Source: an uncultured Hyphomicrobiaceae bacterium (lineage in GTDB: Bacteria; Pseudomonadota; Alphaproteobacteria; Rhizobiales; CALHAX01). From it: 34,250 nucleotides of DNA. The notes under the pieces are model-generated. The model made no database searches. It saw nothing but the letters and a program-made list of their open reading frames with translations, and was not told where the DNA came from. Of the stretch, positions 2,263-20,216 are shown in pieces (positions within the stretch are counted from its first letter, which is position 1; every line of letters starts with the position of its first letter). The stretch is taken from positions 1-34,250 of the forward strand of contig CALHAX010000040.1 in NCBI GenBank assembly GCA_937931785.1, given 5' to 3'. The position numbers were made by a program, and so were the translations under genes.

Positions 2263-2428
2263 GAGGTAAGGCACCCCCCGATGGGTGTCAACGTAAAGAA
2301 CCGACCGTATGAACATCCCGATGCGACCCGCTACGGATTCGCCAGTTCAGGCGTTTTGTGCACCATCGCGAACCATGCATGATATCGATCAGTGAAACGA
2401 ACCAAAGGTGAAGCAAGGAACAGACGCT

Positions 2429-3193
2429 GTGTTGAAACATTGGATGCAGTTGAGCGGCCACGATCTTGCCGATCTGCCAGATCAAACCGTTGTCATCTGT
2501 CCACTGGGCGCCGTCGAATGCCATGGTCCCCACTTGCCGAGCGGTACGGACACAATCATCGCAGATGGCATCCTCGACGCCATTCCAGCGACAGCACTGA
2601 ACGGCGTGACTGCATTGCGTTTGCCACCACTGTGGCTGGGTGCGTCTATGGAGCATTCATCACAGAAAGGAACCCTGAGTGCCCCCGCAGCTCAACTGAT
2701 CAGACAGATCGACGACCTTGCAAACCACGTCGCCAAGCATAACGTGAAACGGCTGATCCTCTTCAGTGCGCATGGCGGAAACAATCCGGTTGCCCGCATC
2801 GCTGCCCTCGAAGCCCGGACGAAACACGGTTTGCTGTGCGCCGCGACACACTGGATGGATTTTGGTTTACCCGACGGCCTGACACCTCCCGCACCGGTGC
2901 GACAGGATGCTCACGGCGGATGGATGGAAACATCCATGATGATGACCATTGCGCCTGAACTTGTGCACGCAACACGACCCGGTCCATCTGATCGCCCAAC
3001 GCCGGCTCCACTACTTTTCCCTGATGGTCCCGTGAATTGGGGCTGGATGTCGGAGGACCTCGGTGCAGACGGATACATCGGCGCGCCAAATCTCGCGACA
3101 CGCGAACTGGGCGATGAACTCGTAAGCAACGCAGCGACGTCACTCGCAAAACTGATCCGGCAAATGGCAGAGGCCGAGTGGCCGCGCAACTAA
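2429..3193 (+). CDS. Creatininase-family amidohydrolase
   Basis: A metal-dependent amidohydrolase of the creatininase/MftE superfamily, about 254 residues, the usual family length. The motif GAVECHGPHLPSGTDT (about residues 27-42) supplies Glu30, His32 and Asp41 as metal ligands. SAHGGNN lies mid-protein, and AHGGWMETSMMM supplies the later acidic ligand. Members cleave cyclic amides or C-terminal peptide bonds, or act on pyrimidine and riboflavin-pathway formamides, so the substrate cannot be assigned. I prefer the GTG at 2429 because AAGGA ends 9 bases upstream and the family N-terminus aligns there; a GTG at 2408 and an ATG at 2444 are alternatives. It diverges from the cobalamin operon and converges on the extensin-like gene, with only 10 bases between stops. 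Confidence 0.85.
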   Translation: MLKHWMQLSGHDLADLPDQTVVICPLGAVECHGPHLPSGTDTIIADGILDAIPATALNGVTALRLPPLWLGASMEHSSQKGTLSAPAAQLIRQIDDLANHVAKHNVKRLILFSAHGGNNPVARIAALEARTKHGLLCAATHWMDFGLPDGLTPPAPVRQDAHGGWMETSMMMTIAPELVHATRPGPSDRPTPAPLLFPDGPVNWGWMSEDLGADGYIGAPNLATRELGDELVSNAATSLAKLIRQMAEAEWPRN

Positions 3194-6015: not shown

Positions 6016-7377
6016 TCACGACGCAACCGCAACAGGCGTTGTCAACAGGCCGTCCAGCAGTGTACCGCGGCTCGCCGTATAACCATCGACACCTCCACGC
6101 TTTGCCGCCCGTTCATCGACAAGCGTACGCGCCTCCTCGAAGGCTCCGGCCCGGATTGCAGCCTCGATTGTAATCCGTTCGAAAACATCACGTTGAGCGT
6201 GGCTACCACCTACCGTTTGCATTGCAGGACGAGCTGCACTGAGATTTGCGAAAGCGTTCGTGTAGTTGCCATCACGAAAGGCAACGAGCCCCGACGCAGC
6301 ATTCAGACCGGGATGATCTGCAACACGGTCCATGTCACCGTCGTTGCGGTTCGCGTCCCGCCGCATGCGGTGCAGCAGCTGTTCCGTAGCCGCTTTACGT
6401 TCCCCACCCAACAACGAAAGCATGTAGTGCAGATCAGCAAACACCGCGCACCCGTCGTCCACACGATGTTCGGACAATGCTGCAAGTTCTTCCCAGCGCG
6501 CGCCAACATCTACCCCTTCGATTTCAAGGCGTGAAAGAAGCGATGCGGCATTGGAAATGTCACGGTAATCGTCTGTCTTGTCCTGACGAATTTCCATATC
6601 GTAGAGCCGAAGAACTTCGTCGTGAGCTCCGGTATCAAGATAGAACAGCGCAAGATGCCAGTAGACGTGATAGCGGAAATTATTGCAGTGCGCCCAGGCA
6701 TCCGTCCGGCTTTCCAGCCAAGTGACGCCATCGCGTGCCCGTGCTGTCATGTCGTAAACATGTGCAACCGCGTGAAGCCCCCAGGCATCATCAGAAACCA
6801 GATCAAGCGCGTGTTTACCGGCAATTTCCGCTGCCCTTTGATCGCCGGTTTCCTCAAGTGCAAACGCATAGCAACCATGCATGTAGCCATCCGTCGCATT
6901 CGTTCCTCGGAACTGAGGCATGACCGCTTCAAGCGATGTGCGCATACCGAGCGCATCGCCAAGAATGAACTTGATTGCATGCCCCAGCTTGATCGCCATG
7001 GCATCGCGTGGGTGTGTCTCGAGCAGAGTGTCAAAAATAGCCGCTGATTTCGCAAGTTGCCCTGCAAGATACGCTTCGAGCGCTGCGATATATGCGTTCG
7101 TCCGGACATCTCCTCCATGAGATGCGGTAATCTCTTTGGCCTTAGCAAGCGCTTCCTGTGCCGTAGCGATCAATTCCCGTCGTCCCAGCAGCAAGCTGAA
7201 TAGACCTCGACACGCTTCAGCGATGGCAAACGCTGGCGCTGCCTTGAGCAACGCTCCAAGATGGTCAGCGGTGCTCGCGCCGTGTGAAAGGAACGCAAGG
7301 TTGAGATTGCGCCAGCTCTCCTTCGCGGCAGCACTCTCAAGCGAAACGTCGTATCCGTAAAGGTCCGTCGCAGCCAT
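6016..7377 (-). CDS. TTC38-like tetratricopeptide repeat protein
   Basis: A 453-residue soluble helical protein resembling tetratricopeptide repeat protein 38 (TTC38). The N-terminal third has alternating helices (for example AKSAAIFDTLLETHPRDAMA), and the middle holds the characteristic DAWGLHAVAHVYDM and NFRYHVYWHLALFYLDTG segments, followed by further TPR-like helix pairs. No signal peptide or membrane segment is seen. TTC38 homologues are widespread in bacteria without a defined activity. The conserved histidines in the HAVAH and HVYWH segments might mark a ligand or catalytic site (inference). I use the ATG at 7377 because AGGAG lies 9 bases upstream; a TTG at 7386 directly abuts that site and is unlikely. 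It lies between opgH and opgC on the same strand. Confidence 0.85.
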   Translation of the reverse strand: MAATDLYGYDVSLESAAAKESWRNLNLAFLSHGASTADHLGALLKAAPAFAIAEACRGLFSLLLGRRELIATAQEALAKAKEITASHGGDVRTNAYIAALEAYLAGQLAKSAAIFDTLLETHPRDAMAIKLGHAIKFILGDALGMRTSLEAVMPQFRGTNATDGYMHGCYAFALEETGDQRAAEIAGKHALDLVSDDAWGLHAVAHVYDMTARARDGVTWLESRTDAWAHCNNFRYHVYWHLALFYLDTGAHDEVLRLYDMEIRQDKTDDYRDISNAASLLSRLEIEGVDVGARWEELAALSEHRVDDGCAVFADLHYMLSLLGGERKAATEQLLHRMRRDANRNDGDMDRVADHPGLNAASGLVAFRDGNYTNAFANLSAARPAMQTVGGSHAQRDVFERITIEAAIRAGAFEEARTLVDERAAKRGGVDGYTASRGTLLDGLLTTPVAVAS

Positions 7378-7521
7378 ATGCATCAACTCCTGTTGGTTCA
7401 GGCAGGCATCTCATGCGATGTCGACCTTGGCATGACCATTATATTGGCAAGTGTCACATTCACTTGATCCAGCGAAAATTCGGATGAAAATCCCGTTTTT
7501 CGAATGGATTGGTGAACAAAA

Positions 7522-9393
7522 TCACGACGCTTGCTTGATTCCAGGCAGATCCGGCTCGTCAGACAACTTTGGTGTCTCACCCAGCAAGCGCCTGAGAGGC
7601 AAGGGCATACGCCGGTCTTCCGGTATATTACAGAGGCCTGTACGCACTGAAAACGCTCCAAGCAAAGCGCCGGATGTCAGCACCGAAAACGGTATGCTGA
7701 AAAGAAACCCGGCAATGACAGGCGAGGCCCAGAGCATGACATATGGGGCGTGCGCCCACAGCACCGCAGCCATTACAACACCAGCCAGCGTTTGTGGCCA
7801 GAAAGCACGCGTCGCCTCAGACCATCGAACCGTGTGAACTTCACGCTGCTGGGTTTTCCATTCGATCTTGCGCCCGAACAGCAGGCCAATTGCAAAAACC
7901 GCAATGGCAAAACCGACGACCGGTGCCATAAGCATGGAAAGCACGAGTTCGAGAACCCCACCAGCAACCGTAAGCAGGCCGCCGCCATAGCGCCGCCGTT
8001 GCTGCGGTCGTGCCAATGTACCCGCCAACCCCATGAGTTTCGGCATGAGGCTCATCGTCAGGATTGTAACGAACAGACTGACACCCAGCGCGACAGGATA
8101 GTAAACGCCAGGTTCCTGAACAATGACCTGAACCAACCCCAGTGCAATGAATATCATCCACGCAACCGGGCTCAGATACATCAGGATCGCGAGAGCAAGC
8201 TGCAAGCGACTCACGACGGGAGTATCCGGCATCGTGAGCAACTGCCAGTATTGCATATTTCCCTGACACCAGCGGAGCTCGCGTCGAATGAAGTCCGGCA
8301 GAGAGGGTGGGTTTTCTTCCCAGCTTTCATCCTCTGCCGCAAGCACTCGAACCTCGTAACCAGCACGTCGCATCAAAACGGCTTCGACCTGATCATGGCT
8401 GAGGATGTATCCGGAAAGTGGTCCCGCCCCCTTGATGATGGGCAACTTGCAATGTTCACGAAATGGTTCAAGGCGGATCAGCGCATTGTGCCCCCAGTAC
8501 GGGCCACAATCGCCTTGCCACCAGGCGCTGCCTACGGTGTAGGCGCGCATGCCGTGACGCATACCGAACTGAAACGTGCGCGTAAAAAAACTCTTCGATG
8601 GCGCGCCCACAACGAGCCCCTGCAAAATGCCAATCTGCGGATTGGCTTCCATCGCCCGGACAAGACGCAGAATAGCTTTTGCCGACATGAAACTGTCAGC
8701 ATCGAGCGTGAGGAAAAATTCATACTGCCCGGATAAGCGTTCACAGAATTCGTCGATATTGCCTGCCTTGTAACCTTCGTTCGTCTTGCGACGACGATAG
8801 TATATCCGGCCGCGCCCTCCGACTTCGATCTGCCAGACATTGACCAGACGCTCTTCACGTGCCGCAATCTGTGAATCGTCCGTATCGCTGAGAACATGGA
8901 AATCAAACTTGTCGAGCATTCCGGCCCGGTCAACGTCGGCAAACATCGCCTTGAGGCGGTCGATCGATCCATCAGGATCTTCATTTCGTATGACCATGAC
9001 AATGGCCGTGCGCGCAACAATGGGTGCAGAGGCATCCCGCACCACCAATGAAGGACTGATTGCTGCGATCGGATCATCCGTGAACTTCATCAGACCAAAG
9101 CCGATGACAGCATTCCAGAATCCGATTGAGAGCCAGGGTAGGGTAATGACATAGGCTGCCAGCATGGCACCCTTCACCACCGACCATCCACTGTAGTTCA
9201 TCAGTATTGTCATCAATGCGGTCAGCACGACAACAGTTACTATGTTCAGCATGAGCACGATGACGCGCCGACGTGACAGACGACGCTGATCTTCAAACCG
9301 GTCCCAATCAGATGCGGGGTTTGAATTAAGACATGTGGACGTGTCGTGCACGTCGAGTGTGGCACGCGCAGGCTGCGTGGACGGGTGGGCCAT
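7522..9393 (-). CDS. opgH: OpgH/MdoH glucan beta-glucosyltransferase
   Basis: An inner-membrane GT2 glucosyltransferase that polymerises UDP-glucose into the backbone of osmoregulated periplasmic glucans. The 623-residue protein has two N-terminal membrane helices (about residues 44-64 and 70-97). The GT domain follows, with SDTDDS, LTLDADSFMS (the DxD-like metal site), HDQVEAVLMRRAGYEV and the RWCQGNMQYW version of the QxxRW motif. The C-terminal half has several further helices. It is shorter than the roughly 850-residue E. coli enzyme, mainly at the N-terminus, as in other alphaproteobacterial forms. The ATG at 9393 follows a GAGAGAA ribosome binding site. No opgG lies beside it in the window. 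Confidence 0.93.
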   Translation of the reverse strand: MAHPSTQPARATLDVHDTSTCLNSNPASDWDRFEDQRRLSRRRVIVLMLNIVTVVVLTALMTILMNYSGWSVVKGAMLAAYVITLPWLSIGFWNAVIGFGLMKFTDDPIAAISPSLVVRDASAPIVARTAIVMVIRNEDPDGSIDRLKAMFADVDRAGMLDKFDFHVLSDTDDSQIAAREERLVNVWQIEVGGRGRIYYRRRKTNEGYKAGNIDEFCERLSGQYEFFLTLDADSFMSAKAILRLVRAMEANPQIGILQGLVVGAPSKSFFTRTFQFGMRHGMRAYTVGSAWWQGDCGPYWGHNALIRLEPFREHCKLPIIKGAGPLSGYILSHDQVEAVLMRRAGYEVRVLAAEDESWEENPPSLPDFIRRELRWCQGNMQYWQLLTMPDTPVVSRLQLALAILMYLSPVAWMIFIALGLVQVIVQEPGVYYPVALGVSLFVTILTMSLMPKLMGLAGTLARPQQRRRYGGGLLTVAGGVLELVLSMLMAPVVGFAIAVFAIGLLFGRKIEWKTQQREVHTVRWSEATRAFWPQTLAGVVMAAVLWAHAPYVMLWASPVIAGFLFSIPFSVLTSGALLGAFSVRTGLCNIPEDRRMPLPLRRLLGETPKLSDEPDLPGIKQAS

Positions 9394-9508: not shown

Positions 9509-10492
9509 ATGACCTCCTCTACAGCGCTTTGGTACGAGACCAAACAGAAACTCACGTTTCGCACGGAATTGTTATGTCCCGTAACAGAGCGTGATGTGCT
9601 TCTGAAATGCCTGTGGTCGGGCGTAAGTCGTGGTACGGAGCGCCTTGTTTTTGAGGGATCCGTCCCGACATCTGAATGGGATCGTATGCGGTGCCCCCAT
9701 CAGCGCGGAACGTTTGGTTTCCCCGTAAAGTATGGATACGGATTCGTTGGCCAAATTATGAATCCGGACCTGCCAGAGTGCGAAAAATACGCCTTCTGCC
9801 TTCATCCTCATCAAACGCATGTCATCGTGCCACGTAACGCAATTCACATCCTGCCCCAGGGCCTTCCGCCGCGTCGCGCGGTGCTGACCGCAAACATGGA
9901 AACAGCTCTCAATGTCGTTTGGGATGCGCAAGTTTCTGCCGGGGACCGTATTCTTGTTGTCGGTGCAGGGGTTGTCGGACTTCTGATTGCCTGGCTTGCG
10001 GCGCAAATGCCGGGAACCGATGTTACGATCTGCGATCTGGACTCATCAAAACGAACCATCGCCGAATCCCTGGAGCTCAAGTTCTGCACACCGGAGACGG
10101 CCCCCCGCCTCTGCGACGCAACGATCAACGCCAGTGCCTCTGAAGACGGCTTGCAACTGGCACTTCAGTCAGCGGGCCTTGAGGCACGCGTTGTAGAGGC
10201 AAGCTGGTTTGGAAATCGAGACGTCTCAATCCCGCTTGGCGGCGCGTTTCATAGCCAACGCCTGCAGATCATATCGTCACAGGTCGGGCACGTTGCGCCA
10301 ACACGCCGCGCCCGCTGGACATATGCGCGCCGTATGTCAAAGGCGATATCCCTGTTGAGCGATCCGGCTCTCGACAATCTGATCACGCATGAGATTGACT
10401 TCACAAACGCACCGGCCCAGCTTCCGCCGCTCTTCAACGACCCCACAGCGCTCGGCATTGCCCTGCGTTATCCCACCAGCCAGACCTCCTGA
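9509..10492 (+). CDS. Medium-chain dehydrogenase-like protein of the pterin-type cluster
   Basis: About 327 residues of the MDR (zinc alcohol dehydrogenase-like) superfamily. A GroES-like N-terminal half contains SGVSRGTERLVFEG, where classical alcohol dehydrogenases have the CGxxHxE catalytic-zinc motif; the zinc Cys/His pair appears to be missing, as in some BchC-like relatives. FPVKYGYGFVGQI and FCLHPHQTHVIVP follow. The Rossmann motif VVGAGVVGLL marks NAD(P) binding. I chose the ATG at 9509 because homologues start close to ALWYETKQK; a TTG at 9458 gives an unsupported extension. It heads a tight plus-strand run with the PTPS-like, glycosyltransferase and methyltransferase genes. It probably oxidises or reduces a side chain of the cluster's product (inference). 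Confidence 0.8.
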   Translation: MTSSTALWYETKQKLTFRTELLCPVTERDVLLKCLWSGVSRGTERLVFEGSVPTSEWDRMRCPHQRGTFGFPVKYGYGFVGQIMNPDLPECEKYAFCLHPHQTHVIVPRNAIHILPQGLPPRRAVLTANMETALNVVWDAQVSAGDRILVVGAGVVGLLIAWLAAQMPGTDVTICDLDSSKRTIAESLELKFCTPETAPRLCDATINASASEDGLQLALQSAGLEARVVEASWFGNRDVSIPLGGAFHSQRLQIISSQVGHVAPTRRARWTYARRMSKAISLLSDPALDNLITHEIDFTNAPAQLPPLFNDPTALGIALRYPTSQTS

Positions 10493-10506
10493 CGAAAGCA
10501 CCCCTT

Positions 10507-10926
10507 ATGTACGCACTTGAAGTTCGCGACCACGTCATGATTGCGCACAGCCTTCCCGGGGACGCATTCGGCCCTGCCCAGGGCATGCACGGGGCAACAT
10601 TTGTTGTCGACGCCGCCTTTTTTCGTTCTGAACTGACAGAAAACGACATTGTCGTGGATATTGGTCTCGCTGCGGATGTTCTCAAAGAGATCCTCGGGAC
10701 GCTTAACTACAAGAATCTCGATGAACTGAATATATTCGGTGGCAAGCGCTCAACGACGGAAGTTCTGGCCAGGTGGATTTTCGACGAACTTGCCAAAGCG
10801 ATCGCAGATGGGCGCCTCGGCGAAGATGCCCGTGCGATCGAACGGATGAAAATCACCTTGAACGAGTCTCACGTCGCCCGCGCCTGGTTCGAGGCGGCAC
10901 TCCCTGATGCCAGCAACAATGCCTGA
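10507..10926 (+). CDS. Divergent 6-pyruvoyl-tetrahydropterin synthase / QueD-like protein
   Basis: A 139-residue protein of the PTPS/QueD T-fold family, whose members act on 7,8-dihydroneopterin triphosphate. The zinc-site histidines His14 (MIAHS) and His28 (MHGATF) are present. However, the third ligand of the usual HGH motif is Ala30, and I find no cysteine anywhere in the protein, so the canonical catalytic Cys is absent. Later landmarks are retained: an Asn-Leu-Asp-Glu segment (NYKNLDEL), STTEVLARWIF, and a Glu (NESHVARAW, about residue 120) at the pterin-anchoring position. It is therefore not an ordinary queuosine or tetrahydrobiopterin enzyme. It starts 14 bases after the dehydrogenase and overlaps the glycosyltransferase start by 8 bases. 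Confidence 0.85.
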   Translation: MYALEVRDHVMIAHSLPGDAFGPAQGMHGATFVVDAAFFRSELTENDIVVDIGLAADVLKEILGTLNYKNLDELNIFGGKRSTTEVLARWIFDELAKAIADGRLGEDARAIERMKITLNESHVARAWFEAALPDASNNA

Positions 10927-11968
10927 TGTCTGGTTCGTCAGCCCCGGAGATCCCGCAACGCTCTCCGGCGGTCATATCTACAATGCACGCGTCGCGCAGG
11001 GTTTGCGCGCACAGGGCTGGACACTAAATCAAATTCGCCTGCCCGACGCTTTCCCATTCCCAAAGGCGACGGATCAGACAACGACTGCCACACAACTGGC
11101 ACGTGTCCCCGACACAGACCTCCTGGTGATCGATGGACTGGCTTTTGGCGCGTTTTCGCATGAGGTGCTGGCCGGTTTGTCAGGAAAAATTGTCGCGCTC
11201 GTTCACCACCCACTGGCGGACGAAAGCGGACTGAACACCGCCCAGATCGCAAACTTCATGGAAACGGAACGGGCCGCTCTGGCCTATGCAGAAGGCGTGA
11301 TCGTCACCAGCCCGCACACGCAAGAAGCGCTTATTTCGAGATTCGCAGTGCCAGACACAAAAATTTCCGTTGCCATTCCAGGCGTGGACCGCCCGACCAG
11401 CCAGGCTGTGAAAGCAATCCCCCCCCTTCTTTTGAGCGTCGGATCACTGACGCATCGCAAGGGCCACGATAGTCTTGTCCAGGCGCTTGCCCGGATCGCC
11501 GATCTGAATTGGCAATGCGTGATCGTGGGGAACGCAGATCGTGATCCGGAAGCCGTCACCAGAATTCGAGATTTGATCGCCGAACATAAACTGGAGCAAC
11601 GCGTCACACTGGCTGGTGAACGCACAAACGATGAGCTGTCGCGCGCCTACACCGAAGCAACGGCGTTCGTTCTTGCAACGCGTCATGAAGGATACGGCAT
11701 GGTTTTTTCAGAAGCGATGGTTCATGGCTTGCCGATCGTCACGTGCGCTGCAGGTGCCGTGCCTGACACAGTACCGAACTGCGCCGGCCTGCTCGTTCCT
11801 CCCGATAGCCCATCCGAATTTGCCGAAGCCCTGCGAGACGTTCTGACAAATAGCGAAACACGTGCGCACCTCACTGCGGGCTCGCTGTCTGCCGGGCACG
11901 CCTTGCCGACCTGGAACGACACGGCGCGAATTTTCGGAGAAAAACTCCAACAGGTCGCCGCCTCATGA
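10919..11968 (+). CDS. GT4-family glycosyltransferase
   Basis: A 349-residue GT-B fold glycosyltransferase of family 4. The N-terminal domain begins MPDVWFVSPGDPATLSGGHI with the glycine-rich acceptor-side loop. The C-terminal domain has LLLSVGSLTHRKGHDSLVQAL and the E-x7-E signature in HEGYGMVFSEAMVHGLP, which binds the nucleotide-sugar donor. No membrane segment is evident. The ATG at 10919 overlaps the end of the PTPS-like gene, and the stop overlaps the methyltransferase start in ATGA, so it is co-translated with both. In this setting I infer that it glycosylates the small-molecule product of the cluster, as pteridine glycosyltransferases do in cyanobacteria, rather than a polysaccharide. 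Acceptor and donor are unknown. Confidence 0.85.
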   Translation: MPDVWFVSPGDPATLSGGHIYNARVAQGLRAQGWTLNQIRLPDAFPFPKATDQTTTATQLARVPDTDLLVIDGLAFGAFSHEVLAGLSGKIVALVHHPLADESGLNTAQIANFMETERAALAYAEGVIVTSPHTQEALISRFAVPDTKISVAIPGVDRPTSQAVKAIPPLLLSVGSLTHRKGHDSLVQALARIADLNWQCVIVGNADRDPEAVTRIRDLIAEHKLEQRVTLAGERTNDELSRAYTEATAFVLATRHEGYGMVFSEAMVHGLPIVTCAAGAVPDTVPNCAGLLVPPDSPSEFAEALRDVLTNSETRAHLTAGSLSAGHALPTWNDTARIFGEKLQQVAAS

Positions 11969-12786
11969 GTGGATTTTCAGCAGACTGGCTCACTCTGCGA
12001 GAGAAAGCAGACGTTGCAGCCCGATCAGAAGTTGTTCTCGAAGCTGCCCGAGCCTATTGTGCAAACGTCGCGGAAAAACCGTTCCGCATTTGCGACCTTG
12101 GCTCTGGAACCGGCGCATCCGTTGCGGCTTTCTCATCGCAGTTCCCGGCAGCGCAAACCTGGGATCTGATCGACTACGACGCCGAAAACCTCCAGCGCGC
12201 CGTTGAACGGTACACCGGGTCTGGTGCAATCGAGGACGTCACGGTCACGCCCCGGGTCCATAACCTCGCGCTCAATCCCGCTCCCTGGCAACCCAACACG
12301 GACATTGTCACCGCCACAGCACTGTTCGACCTCGCATCTCCCGAGTGGCTGGTTGCATTCGCCAACCGCCTCGCAGCGAACCGACTGCCGATCCTCACGA
12401 CACTGACCTACGATGGACGACACGTACTCGCGCCAGAGCTGCCACTGGATGCAACAATGGCGGAAGCATTCAACACCCATCAACGAAGTGACAAGGGATT
12501 CGGAGTGGCTGCTGGTCCGGATGCAACGAACCAGATCACGGGTCAATTGCAGGATCACGACTACTCATTAGTGATTGGCGACAGTTCCTGGCATCTCAAT
12601 GCACAGGACGACAGCCCTATGATTGCAGCGCTTCTCGATGGATGGTCGCAAGCCGTTATCGACCGTGATCTTGTACCTGAACACCAGGTGCGGGAATGGC
12701 ACAGCGCACGGATAAAAAATACCGCAACACTTCAGGTCGGTCATCTTGATTTTTTTGCAGCACCAAATCCCAGGAACCAAGTTTAG
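11965..12786 (+). CDS. Class I SAM-dependent methyltransferase-like protein
   Basis: A 273-residue protein with a Rossmann-type SAM site: motif I CDLGSGTGASVAAF at about residues 48-61, and an acidic residue after strand 2 (LIDYDAENL, about 72-80). A segment DIVTATALFDLASPEWL resembles motif IV of natural-product methyltransferases. It lies immediately after the glycosyltransferase (ATGA overlap at 11965-11968), so it probably modifies the same compound. Its stop codon overlaps the stop of the convergent cytochrome b561 gene by 4 bases (12783-12786), leaving no room for an intergenic terminator. The substrate is not identifiable from sequence. Confidence 0.82.
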   Translation: MSGFSADWLTLREKADVAARSEVVLEAARAYCANVAEKPFRICDLGSGTGASVAAFSSQFPAAQTWDLIDYDAENLQRAVERYTGSGAIEDVTVTPRVHNLALNPAPWQPNTDIVTATALFDLASPEWLVAFANRLAANRLPILTTLTYDGRHVLAPELPLDATMAEAFNTHQRSDKGFGVAAGPDATNQITGQLQDHDYSLVIGDSSWHLNAQDDSPMIAALLDGWSQAVIDRDLVPEHQVREWHSARIKNTATLQVGHLDFFAAPNPRNQV

Positions 12787-13391
12787 CGACGCGGATTGCG
12801 CCCCGGTAACATGCGTTTCAAGATATCATCCTTGTGCACAAAGTGGTGCATGAGCGCCGCGCCGATGTGAATAGCGATCACAACAGCAAACGCGATCCCG
12901 AGCCAACCATGCACATCCAGAACCCACCCGGAGTTGGCACGATCCTTTGCAACAAGCTCCGGCAACGCAAACAGGCCAAAGACCTCGATCTTCGCACCAT
13001 AAAGCGAGGTGCCAAGCCAACCGAGGATCGGCATGGACACAAGACAAATATACAAAAGACCGTGCACCACATGAGACGCAGTGCGTTGAAACGCTGTCAC
13101 ACTTCCGGGCAAGGGCGGCGGAGGCGAAAGAACACGCCACACAATCCGCAATGATACCATCGCCAGAACAAGGGCGCCGAACGAGCGATGCAAATCATAA
13201 AGCTGATTTTGCAGAACGCCTTTCTTGCTGCCAACGATATCAGCGAGTGACGCTACAATACCCTTGATGGGCCCCCACCCGAAATTCGCTATCGTGAACC
13301 CCAGGACAATCGCAATGATCACAACCACGGCCATCGTCCAGTGCAGGACCTTCGCAGTTCCAGAATAGCTCTCGGTAGTCTGTTGGCTCAT
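12783..13391 (-). CDS. Cytochrome b561-family membrane protein
   Basis: A 202-residue four-helix membrane cytochrome of the bacterial b561/Ni-hydrogenase b-type family. Haem-ligand histidines are visible in the expected helices: KVLHWTMAVV (helix 1), YDLHRSFGALV (helix 2), ASHVVHGLLYI (helix 3) and VIAIHIGAALMHHFVH (helix 4). Such proteins move electrons across or within the inner membrane between quinone and periplasmic or cytoplasmic partners. The ATG at 13391 overlaps the stop of the RibD-like reductase gene in ATGA, an unusual pairing that suggests the redox chemistry of the pterin-type cluster is membrane linked (inference). The gene ends over the convergent methyltransferase gene. Confidence 0.9.
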   Translation of the reverse strand: MSQQTTESYSGTAKVLHWTMAVVVIIAIVLGFTIANFGWGPIKGIVASLADIVGSKKGVLQNQLYDLHRSFGALVLAMVSLRIVWRVLSPPPPLPGSVTAFQRTASHVVHGLLYICLVSMPILGWLGTSLYGAKIEVFGLFALPELVAKDRANSGWVLDVHGWLGIAFAVVIAIHIGAALMHHFVHKDDILKRMLPGRNPRR

Positions 13392-14149
13392 GGTTGGCTC
13401 CCGACATCTCGTTCCATTGCACAATCGAACAGAACATCCCCACTGTCGAACGGAAAGACACGTGTCACGGGCCTGATCGCATCTGCCAGGGTGCCAATTT
13501 CAGGAAGCGACAAGCCTGGAGACCCGGAGCCAATGATCAATGGACCAACGAGGATATGCAGCCGGTTCAGGGCTTTTTCCGAAACAAAGCGGCTGACCGT
13601 CGTCGCGCCACCTTCAACAAGCACGCGTCGCAAACCAGCTTTCCCGAGTTGCTTCAGCATCCATGCCGCCGGATACGCACCCGCGTTATCTGCGGGAACG
13701 AGTTGCAGATGCGACGGATCATTGGGCCTTGCGGGCCCGATTAGGAAAACAGGCGCTCCGTCATCGACAAAAACTTGTGAACCCATTTGAACACGGCGGT
13801 TCGGGTCGATAATGACCCGGGCTGGATTTGGCCCCGTAACACGTCTGACAGTAAGCGACGGATTATCGAGCGCAACGGTACTCGCACCAACAATAACAGC
13901 GTCAACGAGCGCCCGCAGGCAATGCAAGTGATCAAGTGCACCATCGCCGTTGATATAGTGCGAATGCCCGGACGGTGTCGCAATCCGCCCATCAAGCGAC
14001 TGCCCCAACTGGGCAATCACAAACGGTTGATCGTGCGCATGTGCCGCGGCGAGAGAACCGAATATCTGCCATAGTCGATCACTAGCATGTTGCTTGATCA
14101 AATGAGGCTTGCGCGCTACGTCGCTCAGGTCTTCCCAGGCAAGGGCCAT
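13388..14149 (-). CDS. RibD C-terminal / DHFR-like reductase (stand-alone)
   Basis: A 253-residue protein of the RibD C-terminal reductase family, which reduces the ribosyl group of 5-amino-6-ribosylaminouracil phosphate or related substrates with NADPH. The family core starts near residue 45: FVIAQLGQSLDGRIAT, then LRALVDAVIVGASTVALDNPSLTVR, RRVLVEGGATTVSRFV and LHILVGPLIIGSG. The deaminase domain of bifunctional RibD is absent. The roughly 45-residue N-terminal extension is not part of the core. AAGGGAG lies about 4 bases before the ATG at 14149, which decides the start. It is divergent from the GTP cyclohydrolase II gene and coupled to cytochrome b561. It may reduce a cluster-specific intermediate rather than serve riboflavin synthesis. 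Confidence 0.85.
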   Translation of the reverse strand: MALAWEDLSDVARKPHLIKQHASDRLWQIFGSLAAAHAHDQPFVIAQLGQSLDGRIATPSGHSHYINGDGALDHLHCLRALVDAVIVGASTVALDNPSLTVRRVTGPNPARVIIDPNRRVQMGSQVFVDDGAPVFLIGPARPNDPSHLQLVPADNAGAYPAAWMLKQLGKAGLRRVLVEGGATTVSRFVSEKALNRLHILVGPLIIGSGSPGLSLPEIGTLADAIRPVTRVFPFDSGDVLFDCAMERDVGSQP

Positions 14150-14179
14150 TTGGCTCCCTTTCAATGACCTTGGTTTCTC

Positions 14180-15337
14180 ATGACATCTAACTCATTGGTT
14201 CACGCTTCGGCCACGGCTGTTCATGCCTTATGCACGGACACCACAGGTTTGCAAAACCCATCGGCATTGCCTGCGGATCATCACAGGATTTCGGTGGAGC
14301 GGTGCATAGCGGAACTCCGCTCCGGGCGTCCTGTACAAATTCGCCATGGTGCGGAAACATGGCTTGCACAGTCAGCCGAAACGGAACTGGTAAATGCATT
14401 ACCAGAAAAGGCATCTCTTGAGGGGCGACTGGTTTTGCCTCTTGAGCGCCTTCAGGCGCTGGGAGCTCAAGTTTCTGGCGCTTCGGCGATTGCTATCGAA
14501 GAGCTATCAATCGCCGAAGCGCATGCGCTCGTATTCGCAACGGACCTTGAAGAATTGCCAGAACTAAGGCCGGCCACAGTTGCAGAAAATGCGGCATTGG
14601 ACCTTCTCAAGTTTGCACAATTGCTGCCGGCAGTGCTCGTACAAGAGCAGGCGAAAACTGAAGCAGATAGCTGGATGCTCGACGTCACCGTTGAGAACAT
14701 TCGCAATCACCACCACGAAGTTGCGCAGGCATTGACGCTGGTCGCACGGACTCCAGTCCCTTTGCTGGATGACGCGAGCGCAGAATTCGTGGTATTCCGC
14801 GGCAGCGACGGGCTCAAGGACCAACTCGCCATCATCGTCGGCCAGCCGGATCCCACCGCCCCGGTTCCGATACGTCTCCATTCTGCGTGCCTGACAGGCG
14901 ACCTGTTCGGCAGTCTCAAATGCGACTGCGGGGAACAATTACGTCGCGCTATACAGTCCTTCGCCGAGTCCGGCGGCGGCATACTGCTCTATCTCGATCA
15001 GGAAGGACGCGGCATTGGCCTCAGCAACAAGATGCGTGCTTACGCGCTTCAGGCGGGGGGCTATGACACTGTCGATGCGGATGCGGTACTGGGATACGGC
15101 TCCGACGAAAGACGTTATGAAATAGCGGCCCGGATGGTCGTCTTGCTTGGCTACAAGCGTGTGTCGTTGCTCACCAATAACCCCAAAAAGATCGCGGCGC
15201 TCAACGCGCACGGCATCGATGTCGCCGACCGCATCGCACTCGTCGGTACAATGAACCCGCATAACGAACGCTATCTCAAGGCCAAGGTCGAGCGCTCTGG
15301 CCATCTCGCCGAGTGCGCAACAGAACCAGCAAAATAG
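14180..15337 (+). CDS. ribA: GTP cyclohydrolase II with N-terminal extension
   Basis: The C-terminal half is a full GTP cyclohydrolase II, which opens GTP to the 2,5-diamino-6-ribosylamino-pyrimidinone phosphate. The zinc site is C-x10-C-x-C in CLTGDLFGSLKCDCG (about residues 235-249). LYLDQEGRGIGLSNKMRAYALQ and LLTNNPKKIAAL are further signatures. The N-terminal approximately 190 residues are not the DHBP-synthase domain of RibBA but an unassigned extension with SGRPVQIRHG near its start. The ATG at 14180 lacks a good ribosome binding site; GTG at 14294 has AGGA 6 bases upstream and begins VERCIAELRSGRPV, so the true start may be there. It could be a riboflavin gene, but the neighbours point to a dedicated pterin-type pathway. 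Confidence 0.88.
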   Translation: MTSNSLVHASATAVHALCTDTTGLQNPSALPADHHRISVERCIAELRSGRPVQIRHGAETWLAQSAETELVNALPEKASLEGRLVLPLERLQALGAQVSGASAIAIEELSIAEAHALVFATDLEELPELRPATVAENAALDLLKFAQLLPAVLVQEQAKTEADSWMLDVTVENIRNHHHEVAQALTLVARTPVPLLDDASAEFVVFRGSDGLKDQLAIIVGQPDPTAPVPIRLHSACLTGDLFGSLKCDCGEQLRRAIQSFAESGGGILLYLDQEGRGIGLSNKMRAYALQAGGYDTVDADAVLGYGSDERRYEIAARMVVLLGYKRVSLLTNNPKKIAALNAHGIDVADRIALVGTMNPHNERYLKAKVERSGHLAECATEPAK

Positions 15338-15420: not shown

Positions 15421-15483
15421 GTGTTGCAACCCTTCGACATTAAGGATCATTCGGCAGAGATCTGCTTCTCATGGCAAACTTAA
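15421..15483 (+). CDS. Possible 20-residue small ORF with strong ribosome binding site
   Basis: A GTG-started reading frame encodes VLQPFDIKDHSAEICFSWQT and ends in TAA. GGAGG at 15409-15413 stands 7 bases before the start, better than most sites in this window. It lies between the GTP cyclohydrolase II gene and the convergent SDR gene, overlapping the 3' end of the latter by 15 bases. I recognise no family. It could be a chance ORF, a leader or degenerate remnant, or a real small peptide. Confidence 0.2.
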   Translation: MLQPFDIKDHSAEICFSWQT

Positions 15484-16203
15484 CTGCGCCATCCGTCCAC
15501 CATCTACCGTGTAGATTTGCCCGGTCACAAATGCTGCCTCGGGTGACGCAAGCCAACAGACCAACGCCGCAACTTCTTCTGGCGTTCCTGTACGCCCAAC
15601 CGGATGAACCGTATCAATCTGCTCTCTGAAGCTAACTGGATCGGGTTGCGATTCAATAAAATCGACATTCAACGGTGTGTCGATCCAGCCTGGAGCAACC
15701 GCATTGCACCGCACCCCGTCAGGCCCATGATCTACAGCCACCGATCGTGTCAATCCGTGCAATCCTGCTTTCGAAGCACAATACGCCGGATGACGCGGGT
15801 TGGAACCCAGCCCCTCAATCGATCCGATATTGACAACGCTGCCATTGACATCTTTCAGGTGTGGCATGGCATGCTTGATCAGCATGAAAGGTGCAGTGAG
15901 GTTCACACGCAACGCGCGCTCCCAACTGTCAAGCGGCATCTCCTCGACCGTCCCTTCTTCCATCACGCCAGCATTGTTGACGAGCACATCGAGTCGTCCG
16001 GTCTTGACAATAATTTCCGCAATAACACGCTCAGCCACACGCGCGTCGGAAAAATCCGCGGTGATGTTCTCGAACCCGGTTGAATCCCCGCGCTGGGCTG
16101 TAAATACGCGTGCACCCTCGTCGGAAAATTGCTGCGCGCACGCCTGGCCGATCCCGCTCCGCCCACCGGTCACAAGCACCACCTTGTCCGCAAACCGGCT
16201 CAT
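15469..16203 (-). CDS. SDR-family NAD(P)-dependent oxidoreductase
   Basis: A 244-residue classical short-chain dehydrogenase. The cofactor motif TGGRSGIG is at about residues 12-19, NNAG at about 82-85, a catalytic Ser lies in NIGSIEG, and YCASKAG supplies the YxxxK pair; a C-terminal VTGQIYTVDGG completes the family pattern. It follows the other SDR gene with an ATGA overlap (16200-16203), so the two are co-translated. Substrates are likely alcohol or keto groups of the compound handled by the divergent catabolic operon (inference). The exact substrate is not predictable. Confidence 0.9.
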   Translation of the reverse strand: MSRFADKVVLVTGGRSGIGQACAQQFSDEGARVFTAQRGDSTGFENITADFSDARVAERVIAEIIVKTGRLDVLVNNAGVMEEGTVEEMPLDSWERALRVNLTAPFMLIKHAMPHLKDVNGSVVNIGSIEGLGSNPRHPAYCASKAGLHGLTRSVAVDHGPDGVRCNAVAPGWIDTPLNVDFIESQPDPVSFREQIDTVHPVGRTGTPEEVAALVCWLASPEAAFVTGQIYTVDGGRMAQLSLP

Positions 16204-16934
16204 CCGACAGGCTTCCCGCCGTTCACTTCAAGCAAGGCACCGCACATGTAGCGCGCATCATCAGAGGCGAGAAAGGCCACCACGTCCGCAATATCTTCCG
16301 GTTGTGCGATCCGTCCAAGCGGCACCGTGCAATCCAGTTCACCAATCGCAGTTTCCGGATCGAGACCACGGATCTCGAAACCCGTCCGCAGCATTGGCGT
16401 ATCCACTTCGTTCGGGCAAACAGCATTCACACGGATGCCCTGATGCGCATGATCTCGGCCAAGACATTGTGTCAGAGAGGCAAGCGCCGCTTTCGACATC
16501 ACATAAACCGGATGATGCGGCCCCGGATGCAAACCCCAGCACGAGGCCGTGTTGACAATCGCCCCACCACCAGTCTCCGCCATGATCGGGATTGCGGCAC
16601 GGCACAGCCGGAATGGCGCCTCCACATTAATCGCCATGGACATACGGTAGTCATCGTCGCTAGCCTGCGTGATGTCTCCACGCCGAATGATACCCGCATT
16701 ATTAACCAGAATGTCCAATCCACCCAGCGTATCCATTGCGGCCTGGGGGAGCCCATCGCAGTAGTTTGCATCTGTCAGATCCCCCGCAAGGTAGGCGTCC
16801 GCATCAACACCCGATGGGTCGATGTCAGCAGCCGCAACACGTGCGCCTTCCAACTTCAACCGCGCAGAAATAGCCTGACCGATACCGCCAGCCGCACCAG
16901 TTACAAGTGCATTTCGCCCCTCAAGACGCATCAT
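16200..16934 (-). CDS. SDR-family NAD(P)-dependent oxidoreductase
   Basis: A second classical short-chain dehydrogenase, 244 residues from the ATG at 16934. TGAAGGIG lies at about residues 12-19, NNAG in the middle, NTASCWG carries the catalytic Ser, and YVMSKAA has the Tyr and Lys; it ends GALLEVNGG. A longer frame back to 17069 shows no SDR-like sequence, so I reject it; a second ATG lies directly after the first. It leads the minus-strand pair and diverges from the alpha-hydroxyacid oxidase gene across about 370 bases holding two operator-like sites. The two SDRs are clearly different sequences, not a recent duplication. Confidence 0.88.
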   Translation of the reverse strand: MMRLEGRNALVTGAAGGIGQAISARLKLEGARVAAADIDPSGVDADAYLAGDLTDANYCDGLPQAAMDTLGGLDILVNNAGIIRRGDITQASDDDYRMSMAINVEAPFRLCRAAIPIMAETGGGAIVNTASCWGLHPGPHHPVYVMSKAALASLTQCLGRDHAHQGIRVNAVCPNEVDTPMLRTGFEIRGLDPETAIGELDCTVPLGRIAQPEDIADVVAFLASDDARYMCGALLEVNGGKPVG

Positions 16935-17304
16935 GGTTCTACGTTCTGAATTCGTATCATTGTGTACATCCTCAACAAGAATTTCATGTTCACGACACTC
17001 GACATAACTTCGCAGTGCGTGATTCGGGATTGCCTGTAGGTCAGCGCCGACAAAGGGCACCGACCTCAATCATGGGGCCGTTTCATTCGCAAGTCTTTTT
17101 AATCCATGTCTCCTCAACGATGGTGGATACCTTATCGAAGGTCTGGCCCATGCCTGTCCAATGAGACATTTCGTTTGTTAAGTCACATTGTAGACAGTTG
17201 CGACATGCGCCATGTATCGCGGCCCACGTTCTTGACCATGCTGATATGTTCTGTCCTGATGCTTACGGACACACCGCCTCAGGACCGCGAGACTTTTCCG
17301 ACAC
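16935..17304. promoter_or_regulatory. Divergent intergenic region with two TTGTnnACA sites
   Basis: This 370-base gap separates the SDR pair (minus) from the oxidase-ThDP operon (plus) and should hold both promoters. TTGTGTACA at 16960-16968 and TTGTAGACA at 17188-17196 each fit the TTGTnnACAA-like half-palindromes bound by FadR/VanR-type GntR regulators. One sits near each start, which would suit joint control. No regulator gene is visible in the window. I see no convincing ORF or RNA here. The sites are short, so chance occurrence is possible. Confidence 0.35.
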
Positions 17305-18474
17305 GTGACGCAGACGTTCGCAACCACACCGCATCTGCACACTGCGGATGATGCACGCCACCTCGCACGCCAGCGCGTGCCGCGAATGATGTTCGATTTT
17401 GTCGACGGCGCGGCTGGCACTGAAACCGGCAAGCAAAGAAACACGGCAGCATTCCAAAACACACTCCTGCAACCGCGCGTTCTCGTGAATGTCGCGAAAC
17501 GCTCATTGCGCAAGACGTTGTTCGACAAGGAACATGGATTGCCGTTCGGCTTCGCTCCGATGGGAATGTGCAATCTTACCTGGCCCGGCGCGGACAGGAT
17601 GCTTGCAGCGGAAGCGGTCCGCAACACCGTGCCACTCTGCGTCTCGACAGCATCGTCCACATCTCTTGAAGACATGCGTGACCTGGCGGAAGGCCAAGCC
17701 TGGTTCCAGCTTTACGCCGGACAATCGCCAGAGGTGACGACCGGTTTCGTCGATCGCGCAGCAACTGCCGGATATGATGTGCTGGTCTTGACCGTTGACG
17801 TGCCGCAAGTCTCACGACGCGTCCGCGATCTTCGCAACGGGTTCCAGGTCCCCTTTCGGTTCGGCCCGAGGCAAATACTGGATTTCGCGTTGCACCCCCA
17901 TTGGTCACTCAGCCAGTTGATCGCAGGCATCCCCAAACCGATGAACTACGAAACCGCACCAAACGGCGCTGCATTTGTGCGTGGTGAGAGCAGGGCGGGT
18001 GTTGATTTCGAATTTCTTGATCAATTGCGGCAACGATGGAAAGGCAAGCTCATCGTCAAAGGCGTGACGTCGCCGGACGACGCGCTACAGATCAAAGCAG
18101 CAGGTGCAGATGCGATCTATGTCTCAAATCACGGCGCACGCCAGCTTGACAGCGCACCACCAGCCATCAGCATTCTCCCCGACATTCGCAATGCGGTGGG
18201 GCCAACTTGCCCGTTGATTTTCGATAGCGGTGTTCGCTCGGGCGAAGACATCATTAAAGCACTGGCGCTGGGGGCCGACTTTGTCATGCTGGGACGCCCG
18301 GCCATGTTTGCAATCGGCGCAGACGGCACACGGGGTTTACGCACGCTCATCGATATACTGAGCGACGAAGTCAGCGTGACCATGGCACAACTTGGTGTAA
18401 CAGCAGCAGACGACATCGCCGCCAACATTCTTTATACGCCGGAAAAAGACACAGCATCGAAGGGGGTGCGATGA
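17305..18474 (+). CDS. FMN-dependent alpha-hydroxyacid oxidase/dehydrogenase
   Basis: A 389-residue TIM-barrel flavoenzyme of the glycolate oxidase / lactate / mandelate dehydrogenase family, oxidising a 2-hydroxyacid to a 2-oxoacid. RMMFDFVDGAAG (about residues 27-38), FGFAPMGMCNLTWPGAD, WFQLYAG and VLTVDVPQVSRR are family signatures. LIVKGVTSPDDA carries the FMN-binding Lys, and SNHGARQLD at 274-282 provides the catalytic His276 and substrate Arg279. Most relatives have GG where this protein has Gly277-Ala278. The GTG at 17305 gives a family-like N-terminus, though no strong ribosome binding site precedes it. Its stop overlaps the ThDP enzyme start, recalling the mandelate arrangement of hydroxyacid dehydrogenase followed by 2-oxoacid decarboxylase. 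Confidence 0.9.
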   Translation: MTQTFATTPHLHTADDARHLARQRVPRMMFDFVDGAAGTETGKQRNTAAFQNTLLQPRVLVNVAKRSLRKTLFDKEHGLPFGFAPMGMCNLTWPGADRMLAAEAVRNTVPLCVSTASSTSLEDMRDLAEGQAWFQLYAGQSPEVTTGFVDRAATAGYDVLVLTVDVPQVSRRVRDLRNGFQVPFRFGPRQILDFALHPHWSLSQLIAGIPKPMNYETAPNGAAFVRGESRAGVDFEFLDQLRQRWKGKLIVKGVTSPDDALQIKAAGADAIYVSNHGARQLDSAPPAISILPDIRNAVGPTCPLIFDSGVRSGEDIIKALALGADFVMLGRPAMFAIGADGTRGLRTLIDILSDEVSVTMAQLGVTAADDIAANILYTPEKDTASKGVR

Positions 18475-20216
18475 ACGAGAAACGAAGACTTCGTGGCGGC
18501 AACCTGCTCGCACGCGCGCTTCATGAAAAAGGCGTCGAACACGTTTTCACGCTGGCAGGTGGGTTTTGCAATCCAGCGCTTGAAGGCTTCATGGAATGCC
18601 AGATGCGGGTCATCAATTGCCCGCACGAACAAGTTGCCGGGCATCTCGCCGACGGTCACGCCCGCATCACACGCAAGCCGACTGTGTGCCTCGTCGGACC
18701 GGAAGGATTCGCAAACGCCGTCCCCGCCATGATGGAAGCCTGGGGCGAACGCTCCCCCGTCATTTTCGTGACCGGCTCCAGCACGTTGAAACGCCAGGGC
18801 GCTGGAGGCTTCAAGGAGATCGACGATGTCGCCATCGCCGCGCCTCTTGCGAAGTACAGCTTCAGCATTACAGATGGTGAGCGTATCGGCGAATTTGTTG
18901 ATCGTGCCTGGAAAATCGCAACCAGCGGTTACCCGGGGCCGGTACATCTCAGTTTGCCAGTCGACATCATGTTTTCCTCCTTCGACGAGGATGCCGGCCG
19001 GGAGGAACGCCCGTTCAACCGAAAGACACTTCCGCCACCACGCGCATGGCCGGATCCTGAAGCGCTCGCCCCGATCCTCGACAGAATCGCCAACGCGAAA
19101 CATCCGATTCTGATCGGCGGTCATGGCGTCTGGTGGAGTGGCAATGAGGAAAAACTGGAAGCAACCGGTCGCGCCCTCAACATTCCGGTGTTCAACGTCC
19201 CCTATCACCAGAAACTTCTGGCAGAGAGCAGTGCGTCCTACATGGGGCTGGCGGACGTGCATCAATACCCGCCATCGAAATGGGCAATCGAAGAGTCAGA
19301 TGTCGTAATCATGATCGGCGCACGCCTCGACAACCAGATGAATTTTGGCAATCCGCCGTTGTTTCCGGCAAGCACCCATCTCTTGTGCATCAACGGTTCT
19401 CACGAAGAACTCGACAACAACCGCGCCGCCGACACTGCGCTGTTGAGTGATCCTGGCGCATTCCTCGACGCACTTGCGGCGCTCGCCGACGACGGCAAAT
19501 GGTCACTCGGAGATTCCTGGTACGCAAAGAATGTCCAAAAGCGCGGCGAATGGGTCAAGGACACTGTTGCCAAACTCGATGACGAAACAAACGCACCCTT
19601 GTGGCCGAGCGGAAAAATCCACCCCCTGCAGGTCGCTCTCGACGTCCAGGACGCCATGGGGGACGACGATTGGCTGGTGATCGACGGTGGCAACACACAT
19701 TTTTGGTCCGAAATCGCAGTCAATGTCGCCGGGTGGCAGGGAAAGAAACTCGGTGGCATCCTGCATCCTGGTACATTCAGCATGCTTGGCGTCGGCGTAT
19801 CCTTCGCAATTTCTGCCAAGAACACGCACCCGAAGGCGAACGTGGTCCTGATCAGCGGCGATGGGGCATTCCTCTCTGGCGGCCTGTCAGTCGAAGCCGC
19901 CTTCCAGGAAAAATGTCCGATCGTCGTCGTGATCGATAACAACGGCGGTCTCGATTGCATTTCCCAGCAACAGGAACGACTGTTCGAAAGCGGCAAACAT
20001 TTCGCAACCGATTTCCGCGACATCCCCTTCCATGCCATGTTCGAAGGCCTGGGTGGTTACGGCGAACTGGTCGAACGACGTGAGGACATCGCACCCGCAG
20101 TTCGACGTGCCATCGCGAGCGGTAAGACAGCGTGCGTGAACGTGAAGGTCAAAGGCGTGATTAGTCCGATCGTGCTGGCAACCACAAGCAAACGCGACAA
20201 GGCATCAATTGAATAG
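18471..20216 (+). CDS. Thiamine-diphosphate-dependent enzyme (acetolactate synthase / 2-oxoacid decarboxylase-like)
   Basis: A 581-residue three-domain ThDP enzyme. The N-terminal Pyr domain has PHEQVAGHLADGHAR with the activating Glu53. The middle domain includes HPILIGGHGVWWSG. The C-terminal PP domain has the Mg-ThDP motif starting GDGAFLSGG at residues 463-471 and ending near Asn490-Asn491. It could decarboxylate the 2-oxoacid made by the preceding oxidase, or catalyse C-C lyase or ligase chemistry; the sequence does not resolve which. ATGA overlap with the oxidase gene shows tight coupling, and the next gene's ribosome binding site begins just after its stop. It does not look like housekeeping IlvB because no IlvN partner is present. 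Confidence 0.88.
   Translation: MNEKRRLRGGNLLARALHEKGVEHVFTLAGGFCNPALEGFMECQMRVINCPHEQVAGHLADGHARITRKPTVCLVGPEGFANAVPAMMEAWGERSPVIFVTGSSTLKRQGAGGFKEIDDVAIAAPLAKYSFSITDGERIGEFVDRAWKIATSGYPGPVHLSLPVDIMFSSFDEDAGREERPFNRKTLPPPRAWPDPEALAPILDRIANAKHPILIGGHGVWWSGNEEKLEATGRALNIPVFNVPYHQKLLAESSASYMGLADVHQYPPSKWAIEESDVVIMIGARLDNQMNFGNPPLFPASTHLLCINGSHEELDNNRAADTALLSDPGAFLDALAALADDGKWSLGDSWYAKNVQKRGEWVKDTVAKLDDETNAPLWPSGKIHPLQVALDVQDAMGDDDWLVIDGGNTHFWSEIAVNVAGWQGKKLGGILHPGTFSMLGVGVSFAISAKNTHPKANVVLISGDGAFLSGGLSVEAAFQEKCPIVVVIDNNGGLDCISQQQERLFESGKHFATDFRDIPFHAMFEGLGGYGELVERREDIAPAVRRAIASGKTACVNVKVKGVISPIVLATTSKRDKASIE

Follow-up and report, generated by a model that had tools for sequence, protein, structure and literature searches.

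The stretch of DNA considered here (the window, 34,250 nucleotides, positions 1 to 34,250 of contig CALHAX010000040.1, assembly GCA_937931785.1) comes from an uncultured Hyphomicrobiaceae bacterium whose genome is assembled to 3.66 Mb in 134 contigs and is 99% complete. At positions 9509-15337 it holds seven adjacent genes for which a first-pass annotation, made from the letters alone, had proposed a pathway towards a glycosylated, methylated, GTP-derived compound. All seven are intact in the list of open reading frames (ORFs) and lie where they had been placed, and their families are clearly supported, except that the assignments of the methyltransferase and the dehydrogenase are weak. They are listed below, followed by two genes to their left that enter the argument.

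9509..10492, + strand: dehydrogenase of the medium-chain dehydrogenase/reductase (MDR) superfamily, core gene; 57 bits with the BchC model, far below its cut-off of 291; Ser replaces the usual zinc Cys
10507..10926, + strand: T-fold protein resembling 6-pyruvoyl-tetrahydropterin synthase (PTPS), with a replaced active site (FGPAQxxHGA), core gene; PF01242, 4.8e-20
10907..11968, + strand: retaining glycosyltransferase of family GT4, core gene; PF00534, 2e-31
11965..12786, + strand: class I S-adenosylmethionine-dependent methyltransferase (MT), core gene; PF13649, 3.6e-05, below the cut-off
12783..13424, - strand: cytochrome b561, a frequent partner; PF01292, 6.4e-31; likely ATG at 13391
13388..14164, - strand: stand-alone RibD reductase domain (RibD_C), without the deaminase domain; PF01872, 4e-35
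14180..15337, + strand: GTP cyclohydrolase II (GCH II; RibA), with a long N-terminal extension; PF00925, 1.3e-49
7522..9393, - strand: MdoH-like membrane glycosyltransferase of family GT2, divergent from the MDR gene; NCBIfam MdoH models
2408..3193, + strand: amidohydrolase of the creatininase family, a possible pathway member apart from the core; PF02633, 1.2e-56

By their ORF coordinates, the MDR, PTPS-like, GT4 and MT genes form a tight run on the + strand, with a gap of 14 nt between the first two and overlaps of 20 nt (PTPS-like and GT4) and 4 nt (GT4 and MT). On the - strand, RibD_C leads into b561, whose likely ATG at 13391 (residue 12 of the listed ORF) overlaps the RibD_C stop; MT and b561 are convergent with a 4-nt overlap, and RibA diverges from RibD_C across 15 nt with no other gene in its arm. 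Co-translation in both arms, which the overlaps had been said to show, is plausible. Scans for promoters and terminators returned nothing beyond what shuffled sequence gives.

The surroundings of the PTPS-like gene were compared in 115 neighbourhoods, composed of one set of 35 loci and one of 80, the latter being the best 80 of at least 589 relatives and leaning towards close relatives. MDR lies near the PTPS-like gene in 108 of them (34/35 and 74/80), GT4 likewise in 108 (33/35 and 75/80) and MT in 99 (31/35 and 68/80), the last standing apart on the other strand in L132, L148, L150 and L151. RibD_C is found in 74 (27/35 and 47/80), an MdoH-like gene in 48 (8/35 and 40/80), RibA in 44 (12/35 and 32/80), b561 in 42 (7/35 and 35/80) and creatininase in 13 (6/35 and 7/80). 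The usual layout is MDR-PTPS-GT4-MT, with which annotated records agree, and b561, RibD_C, RibA and creatininase mostly come after it, RibD_C or RibA preceding MDR in several loci. These counts come from loci of which 28 are shorter than 17 kb, and passed through an overlap filter that dropped the PTPS-like gene from 14 of the 115 loci, all of which hold it by definition. Since the MdoH-like gene and the creatininase family also recur near the core, the conserved unit is probably wider than the seven genes. The co-occurrence that had been suggested as a check is borne out, PTPS-like, MDR, GT4 and MT standing together in about 100 other loci, and the set may rightly be called coherent. Nearly all relatives examined have these genes around the PTPS-like gene, far more than chance would give. 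That unrelated genes are adjacent by chance, for which at most the faint family matches of MDR and MT could be invoked, is refuted: about 100 neighbourhoods share the set, for the most part with its order kept. Apparent fusions of PTPS with GT4 (L040) and of MDR with PTPS (L063) were dismissed as read-through artefacts with stops inside.

The PTPS-like protein is present in 36 of 289 alphaproteobacterial genomes sampled, the host genome included, in 27 of 398 genomes drawn from the phylum, and in 88 of 150 sampled genomes of one order with small genomes (mostly 1.0-1.6 Mb, many of them incomplete), possibly the HIMB59/AEGEAN-169 plankton. When relatives are taken by organism name, of which at least 589 are confirmed, the best 80 belong mainly to alpha-, beta- and gammaproteobacteria with few others, and some labels (Marinimicrobia, Aquiluna and Bordetella metagenome-assembled genomes) may reflect misbinning. 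Matches in 20 plasmid records add Streptomyces, Microbacterium, Arthrobacter and Thiodictyon. The cluster thus spans at least two phyla, with alpha-, beta- and gammaproteobacteria on one side and Actinomycetota on the other. Bacteria of soils, lakes and the sea as well as plant-associated ones retain it, the order of small genomes among them, and its product is probably useful.

The most distinctive member of the cluster is the PTPS-like protein, which clearly belongs to the PTPS fold family (PF01242, 72 bits against a cut-off of 22.4) and is the sole PTPS-family match of the host genome. Like QueD and PTPS it has the T-fold, and of their residues it keeps the substrate Glu, the T-T-E stretch and two histidines of the zinc site; it differs from them in that the catalytic Cys, the catalytic His and the third zinc His are replaced. 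In the alignment with a true PTPS (2g64), the catalytic Cys and the third zinc His are each matched by Ala, and the Asp-His pair by Asn-Tyr. The replacement of Cys by Ala and of HGH by HGA is found in 36/36 aligned sequences, as is that of the catalytic His (by Tyr, Phe or Leu), and the catalytic Asp is replaced in 31/36, the window protein not being among the five that keep it (L060, L064, L065, L068 and L069). A pattern scan for FGPA[QR]xxHGA, with the third letter of HGA left free, matched 118 of 122 loci, and the four that it missed (L058, L062, L152 and L156) also read HGA, L152 having FGSA for FGPA. The L152 gene (10001-10426), which lies on a Streptomyces plasmid, adjoins a gene for a MEKHLA-domain protein. 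In an alignment of 29 of the 36 sequences, Ala24, His28, Gly29, Ala30, Glu85 and Glu120 are invariant and T83 and T84 nearly so; we take the Glu (E85, E120) and Thr (T83, T84) residues to be those that anchor the substrate or pterin. Judged from these alignments, the usual pterin-synthase active site has been swapped for a different and equally conserved one, and standard PTPS chemistry cannot be expected of the protein. The PTPS-fold step first proposed can therefore not be the standard reaction. In public records the gene is labelled '6-carboxytetrahydropterin synthase'.

Of the proteins with a solved structure, SCO6650 of Streptomyces coelicolor (PDB 3d7j, E 2.3e-60) is the best relative; labelled 'Uncharacterized protein', it matches the same family over its full length and has the same FGPAQ..HGAT motif. 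A structure paper of 2008 reportedly describes it as lacking zinc, the catalytic triad and PTPS activity but as having a pocket into which a pterin would fit; no paper on SCO6650 was found in the open-licence literature searched. A near relative of SCO6650 sits inside a locus of S. fungicidicus with the order CDP-alcohol phosphotransferase (CDPAT)-MDR-PTPS-GT4-MT-creatininase-GCH II. The GTP cyclohydrolase II SCO6655 is said to form a formylated product. In the GCH II of a Streptomyces plasmid cluster (L156 12479-13138), which lies beside a creatininase gene, Met occupies the position at which E. coli and the window RibA have Tyr105, and this Met presumably marks the type of GCH II that keeps the formyl group. 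Tyr is found there in 27/27 RibA copies near other clusters, collected with a pattern open at that position which missed at least L043 and L156, and in L043 as well. A creatininase that removes the formyl group would be attractive for Streptomyces; since six proteobacterial loci pair a Tyr105-type RibA with creatininase, a simple deformylase role fits poorly. SCO6655 is tabulated among anticorrelated genes, the majority of them said there to rise in stationary phase (PMC2853524), and an expression table enters SCO6652 as hypothetical (PMC3610822).

The window RibA keeps the three zinc cysteines C54, C65 and C67 as well as Y105 and R128 of the E. coli enzyme (alignment with 2bz0). It is the only canonical one of three GCH II matches in the host genome: RibB on contig C125 has a degenerate GCH II-like domain in which, by eye, the zinc cysteines are missing, and the third is a PRK07198-type GTP cyclohydrolase on contig C65, near a uracil phosphoribosyltransferase with which it probably forms a pyrimidine breakdown set (L071 4044-7623). 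Being the only canonical copy, the window RibA probably serves riboflavin as well as the cluster. RibD_C is a clear reductase domain (PF01872, 122 bits) and has one other match in the host genome, the full RibD on contig C16, where ribD (deaminase and reductase domains), ribE and ribH stand in a row behind an nrdR-like gene (named by eye). Because of this separate full RibD, RibD_C is surplus to riboflavin needs. At least 71 of 72 cluster RibD_C copies keep D58, G59, R84, D100, R107, E184, G185 and G186, which they share with the genome's RibD, and they have conserved letters of their own, such as GQSLDG. RibA and the RibD reductase domain are thus common to the cluster and the riboflavin pathway, whereas neither the deaminase domain nor RibB, RibE or RibH is among the Pfam matches of the cluster, all of these lying elsewhere in the genome.

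It might be supposed that the cluster merely provides accessory supply genes for riboflavin, folate or queuosine beside unrelated neighbours, and the sole canonical RibA and the sole PTPS-family gene of the genome are what such a role would predict. This explanation is nevertheless highly improbable, given that ribD-ribE-ribH, ribB, two PF01227 (folE, GTP cyclohydrolase I) genes and one folB are found elsewhere, that the catalytic residues and a zinc ligand of the PTPS-like protein are lost, and that GT4, MT and MDR are conserved along with it. QueD, folate (PTPS-III) and plain riboflavin supply were each rejected, with the active site replaced and the riboflavin and folate genes elsewhere. 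The first-pass annotation had asked for separate ribA, ribD, folE and queD genes and held that its proposal would fall if these were the genome's only riboflavin genes and the PTPS, glycosyltransferase and methyltransferase homologues did not co-occur with them in other genomes. The homologues do co-occur in other loci and most of the riboflavin and folate genes do lie elsewhere, a second canonical ribA or PTPS-family gene being what the host genome lacks. Its proposal of a glycosylated and methylated GTP-derived compound is supported in part: a conserved set distinct from the genome's own riboflavin and folate genes speaks for it, and the status of RibA as the sole canonical GCH II, near the cluster in no more than 44 of 115 loci, against it.

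The remaining core enzymes were characterised by family and fold searches. No Pfam family matches the MDR protein above the cut-off, and its best NCBIfam match, BchC, scores 57.3 bits against the 291.25 needed for an equivalog; its motif SGVSRGTE, read by eye, has Ser where the zinc Cys is usual. The GT4 model (predicted local distance difference test, pLDDT, 95.9) best matches sucrose-phosphate synthase in Foldseek; MshA and a glycosyltransferase of Rickettsia also rank high, BshA lower, and the best matches include enzymes that act on small molecules. The MT model (pLDDT 95.7) matches many class I methyltransferases, all distant (template-modelling score, TM, at most 0.62), and the fold search gave no hint of the acceptor.

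The resemblance of MDR to BchC, weak as it is, raises the question of a pigment or light-related pathway of phototrophs, the more so as pterin glycosides are made by cyanobacteria and chlorobia. The cluster PTPS-like gene is present in 7 of 19 genomes with a photosynthetic reaction centre and in 29 of 270 others (Fisher p 0.004, ancestry uncorrected). However, 29 of the 36 genomes with the gene, the host included, have no reaction-centre match, and Streptomyces and Microbacterium carry the cluster; the link to phototrophy is weak and not required, and we consider this explanation very unlikely. The cyanobacterial and chlorobial pathways start with GTP cyclohydrolase I and proceed through a true PTPS, a reductase of the short-chain dehydrogenase/reductase (SDR) type and a biopterin glucosyltransferase. 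With a GTP-derived pterin and a GT4-type glycosyltransferase, the cluster would arrive at a product of this class, but in place of those enzymes it has GCH II, RibD_C, an MDR and a PTPS-like protein that lacks the catalytic residues.

Clustering of the ORFs, from which families built of shadow frames were set aside, revealed further conserved neighbours, namely CDPAT (PF01066), a flippase-like protein (LPG_synthase_TM), an FkbM-type methyltransferase and a membrane protein called a sulfatase in one record, which has no Pfam or NCBIfam match. A membrane partner, either MdoH-like or CDPAT, is an addition to the gene set first proposed. CDPAT is found in 39 of the 115 neighbourhoods; none holds both it and an MdoH-like gene and 28 hold neither (Fisher p 1.4e-12, a value that ignores shared ancestry). 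The two are likewise mutually exclusive in the 87 loci of at least 17 kb (MdoH 35, CDPAT 34, both 0, neither 18). The sulfatase-like protein accompanies CDPAT (26/39 CDPAT loci, 0/48 MdoH loci, 1/28 with neither), and FkbM occurs with both types (16/39 CDPAT loci and 11/48 MdoH loci). On a tree of the core proteins the MdoH/CDPAT label changes at least seven times, for example between the sisters L061/L063 and L133/L144. The tree, a quick one in which 33 of 96 inner branches are under 80, comprises 99 of 121 possible rows (those with more than 500 filled columns), of which 81 are labelled, six of them by hand from annotation (window, L153-L156 and L158); the 18 with neither label were left out of the change count. 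We infer that the MdoH-like protein and CDPAT do the same kind of job, that of moving or anchoring the product at the membrane. Two unrelated membrane enzymes that swap at the same place amount to a natural experiment and hint at the destination of the product.

The window MdoH recalls osmoregulated glucan synthesis by MdoH/OpgH, and an OpgC protein (PF10129) is encoded at 4625-5908, downstream of MdoH. The usual partner MdoG (PF04349), however, has no match in the host genome, and among nine sampled genomes with an MdoH in the cluster, the host being one, eight lack it; for this reason the window MdoH is placed outside the standard glucan system. MdoH and OpgC without MdoG would represent either a glucan system minus its usual partner or a part of the cluster.

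These envelope-type neighbours, frequent near the core, give rise to the proposal that the core, together with MdoH or CDPAT and the sulfatase-like and flippase-like proteins, makes a pterin-free envelope glycoconjugate or glycolipid, and that RibA and RibD_C are neighbours serving riboflavin. It draws further support from the OpgC downstream of MdoH and from RibA, which is the sole canonical GCH II here and is near the cluster in just 44 of 115 neighbourhoods. Against it stand RibD_C, which recurs as a lone reductase half in 74 of 115 loci and here coexists with a complete RibD elsewhere in the genome, the pterin-anchor residues kept by the PTPS-like family, and the pairing of the Streptomyces core with GCH II and creatininase. 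On balance we regard it as unlikely, while granting it real weight.

We favour, with a probability of about 0.6, the reading that the cluster is a dedicated and widely distributed pathway for a GTP-derived 2-amino-4-oxo-pyrimidine or pterin-like compound which is glycosylated, methylated and finished at the cytoplasmic membrane; a GTP origin of the product is in itself likely. This is supported by the intact gene set and the core order kept across alpha-, beta- and gammaproteobacteria and Actinomycetota, by the recurrence of a RibD_C that is extra to the full RibD here, by the uniformly replaced active site of a PTPS-like protein that keeps E85, E120, T83 and T84, by the key GCH II residues of the window RibA together with separate folate and riboflavin genes, by the small-molecule enzymes among the GT4 model matches, and by the MdoH/CDPAT exclusion with its repeated swaps. 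What the loci themselves show is the gene content, its conservation, the replaced active site and, where examined, the exclusion of one membrane enzyme by the other; the substrates, the product, the order of the steps and the reaction of the PTPS-like protein are what we infer from these data. RibA would open GTP to a diaminopyrimidine ribosyl phosphate, a pool that in this genome is probably shared with riboflavin, and RibD_C would reduce the product of RibA, either from ribosyl to ribityl or as a dihydropterin. The PTPS-like protein may hold the pyrimidine ring by means of the Glu and Thr residues that it retains and perform a step other than the PTPS reaction, such as a ring closure or a side-chain rearrangement, and MDR could adjust the side chain by redox chemistry. 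GT4 would then add a sugar with retention and MT a methyl group, the membrane enzyme (MdoH-like here, CDPAT in other lineages) may add a membrane or export group, and b561 is a possible electron partner.

Several observations weigh against this reading, in addition to the limits already attached to the exclusion test and to the tree. No RibA turned up in 71 of the 115 neighbourhoods and no RibD_C in 41, counts that refer to the neighbourhoods only, and because of these absences synteny is no proof of a GTP-derived start everywhere. The S. fungicidicus locus has no RibD_C within 8 kb, and the Streptomyces plasmid copy that reads FGSA has no core neighbour within 10 kb on either side. Wall and protein glycosyltransferases, TarM and SdgB for instance, also figure among the matches to the GT4 model, and the ligand of the PTPS-like protein could be a purine or some other ring.

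The gene set is real and conserved, and no description of it was found in the open-licence papers searched, which agrees with the first impression that it was not a described pathway but does not establish novelty. It contains a T-fold family whose active site has been replaced, and it gives the orphan structure 3d7j a genomic context. A bolder version, which we consider doubtful and offer as speculation, is that the product would be a membrane-anchored, redox-active, glycosylated pterin or ribityl-pyrimidine cofactor, which CDPAT or the MdoH-like protein would join to a membrane carrier, the flippase-like protein export and b561 supply with or relieve of electrons; the PTPS-like protein would be a T-fold enzyme of a new, metal-free kind. 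Genes of the YceI family, which is known to pair with b561, occur near the cluster in 10 of 115 loci (among them L045, L049, L050, L052 and L059), 7 of the 10 being of the CDPAT type.

The 456-aa protein at 6016-7386 of the window was searched for around 35 clusters and gave no match there. Beyond RibA, positions 15469-20216 hold two SDRs, an alpha-hydroxyacid oxidase (LldD) and a thiamine-diphosphate enzyme beside DmdA, likely a separate catabolic set, and the SDR, LldD and thiamine-diphosphate enzyme genes have just scattered matches near other clusters. The dimethylsulfoniopropionate demethylase DmdA itself, at 20604-21722, scores 570 bits against a cut-off of 410 and suggests a marine host. 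Further on, at 29175-30476, lies a gene for Aconitase X (PF04412).

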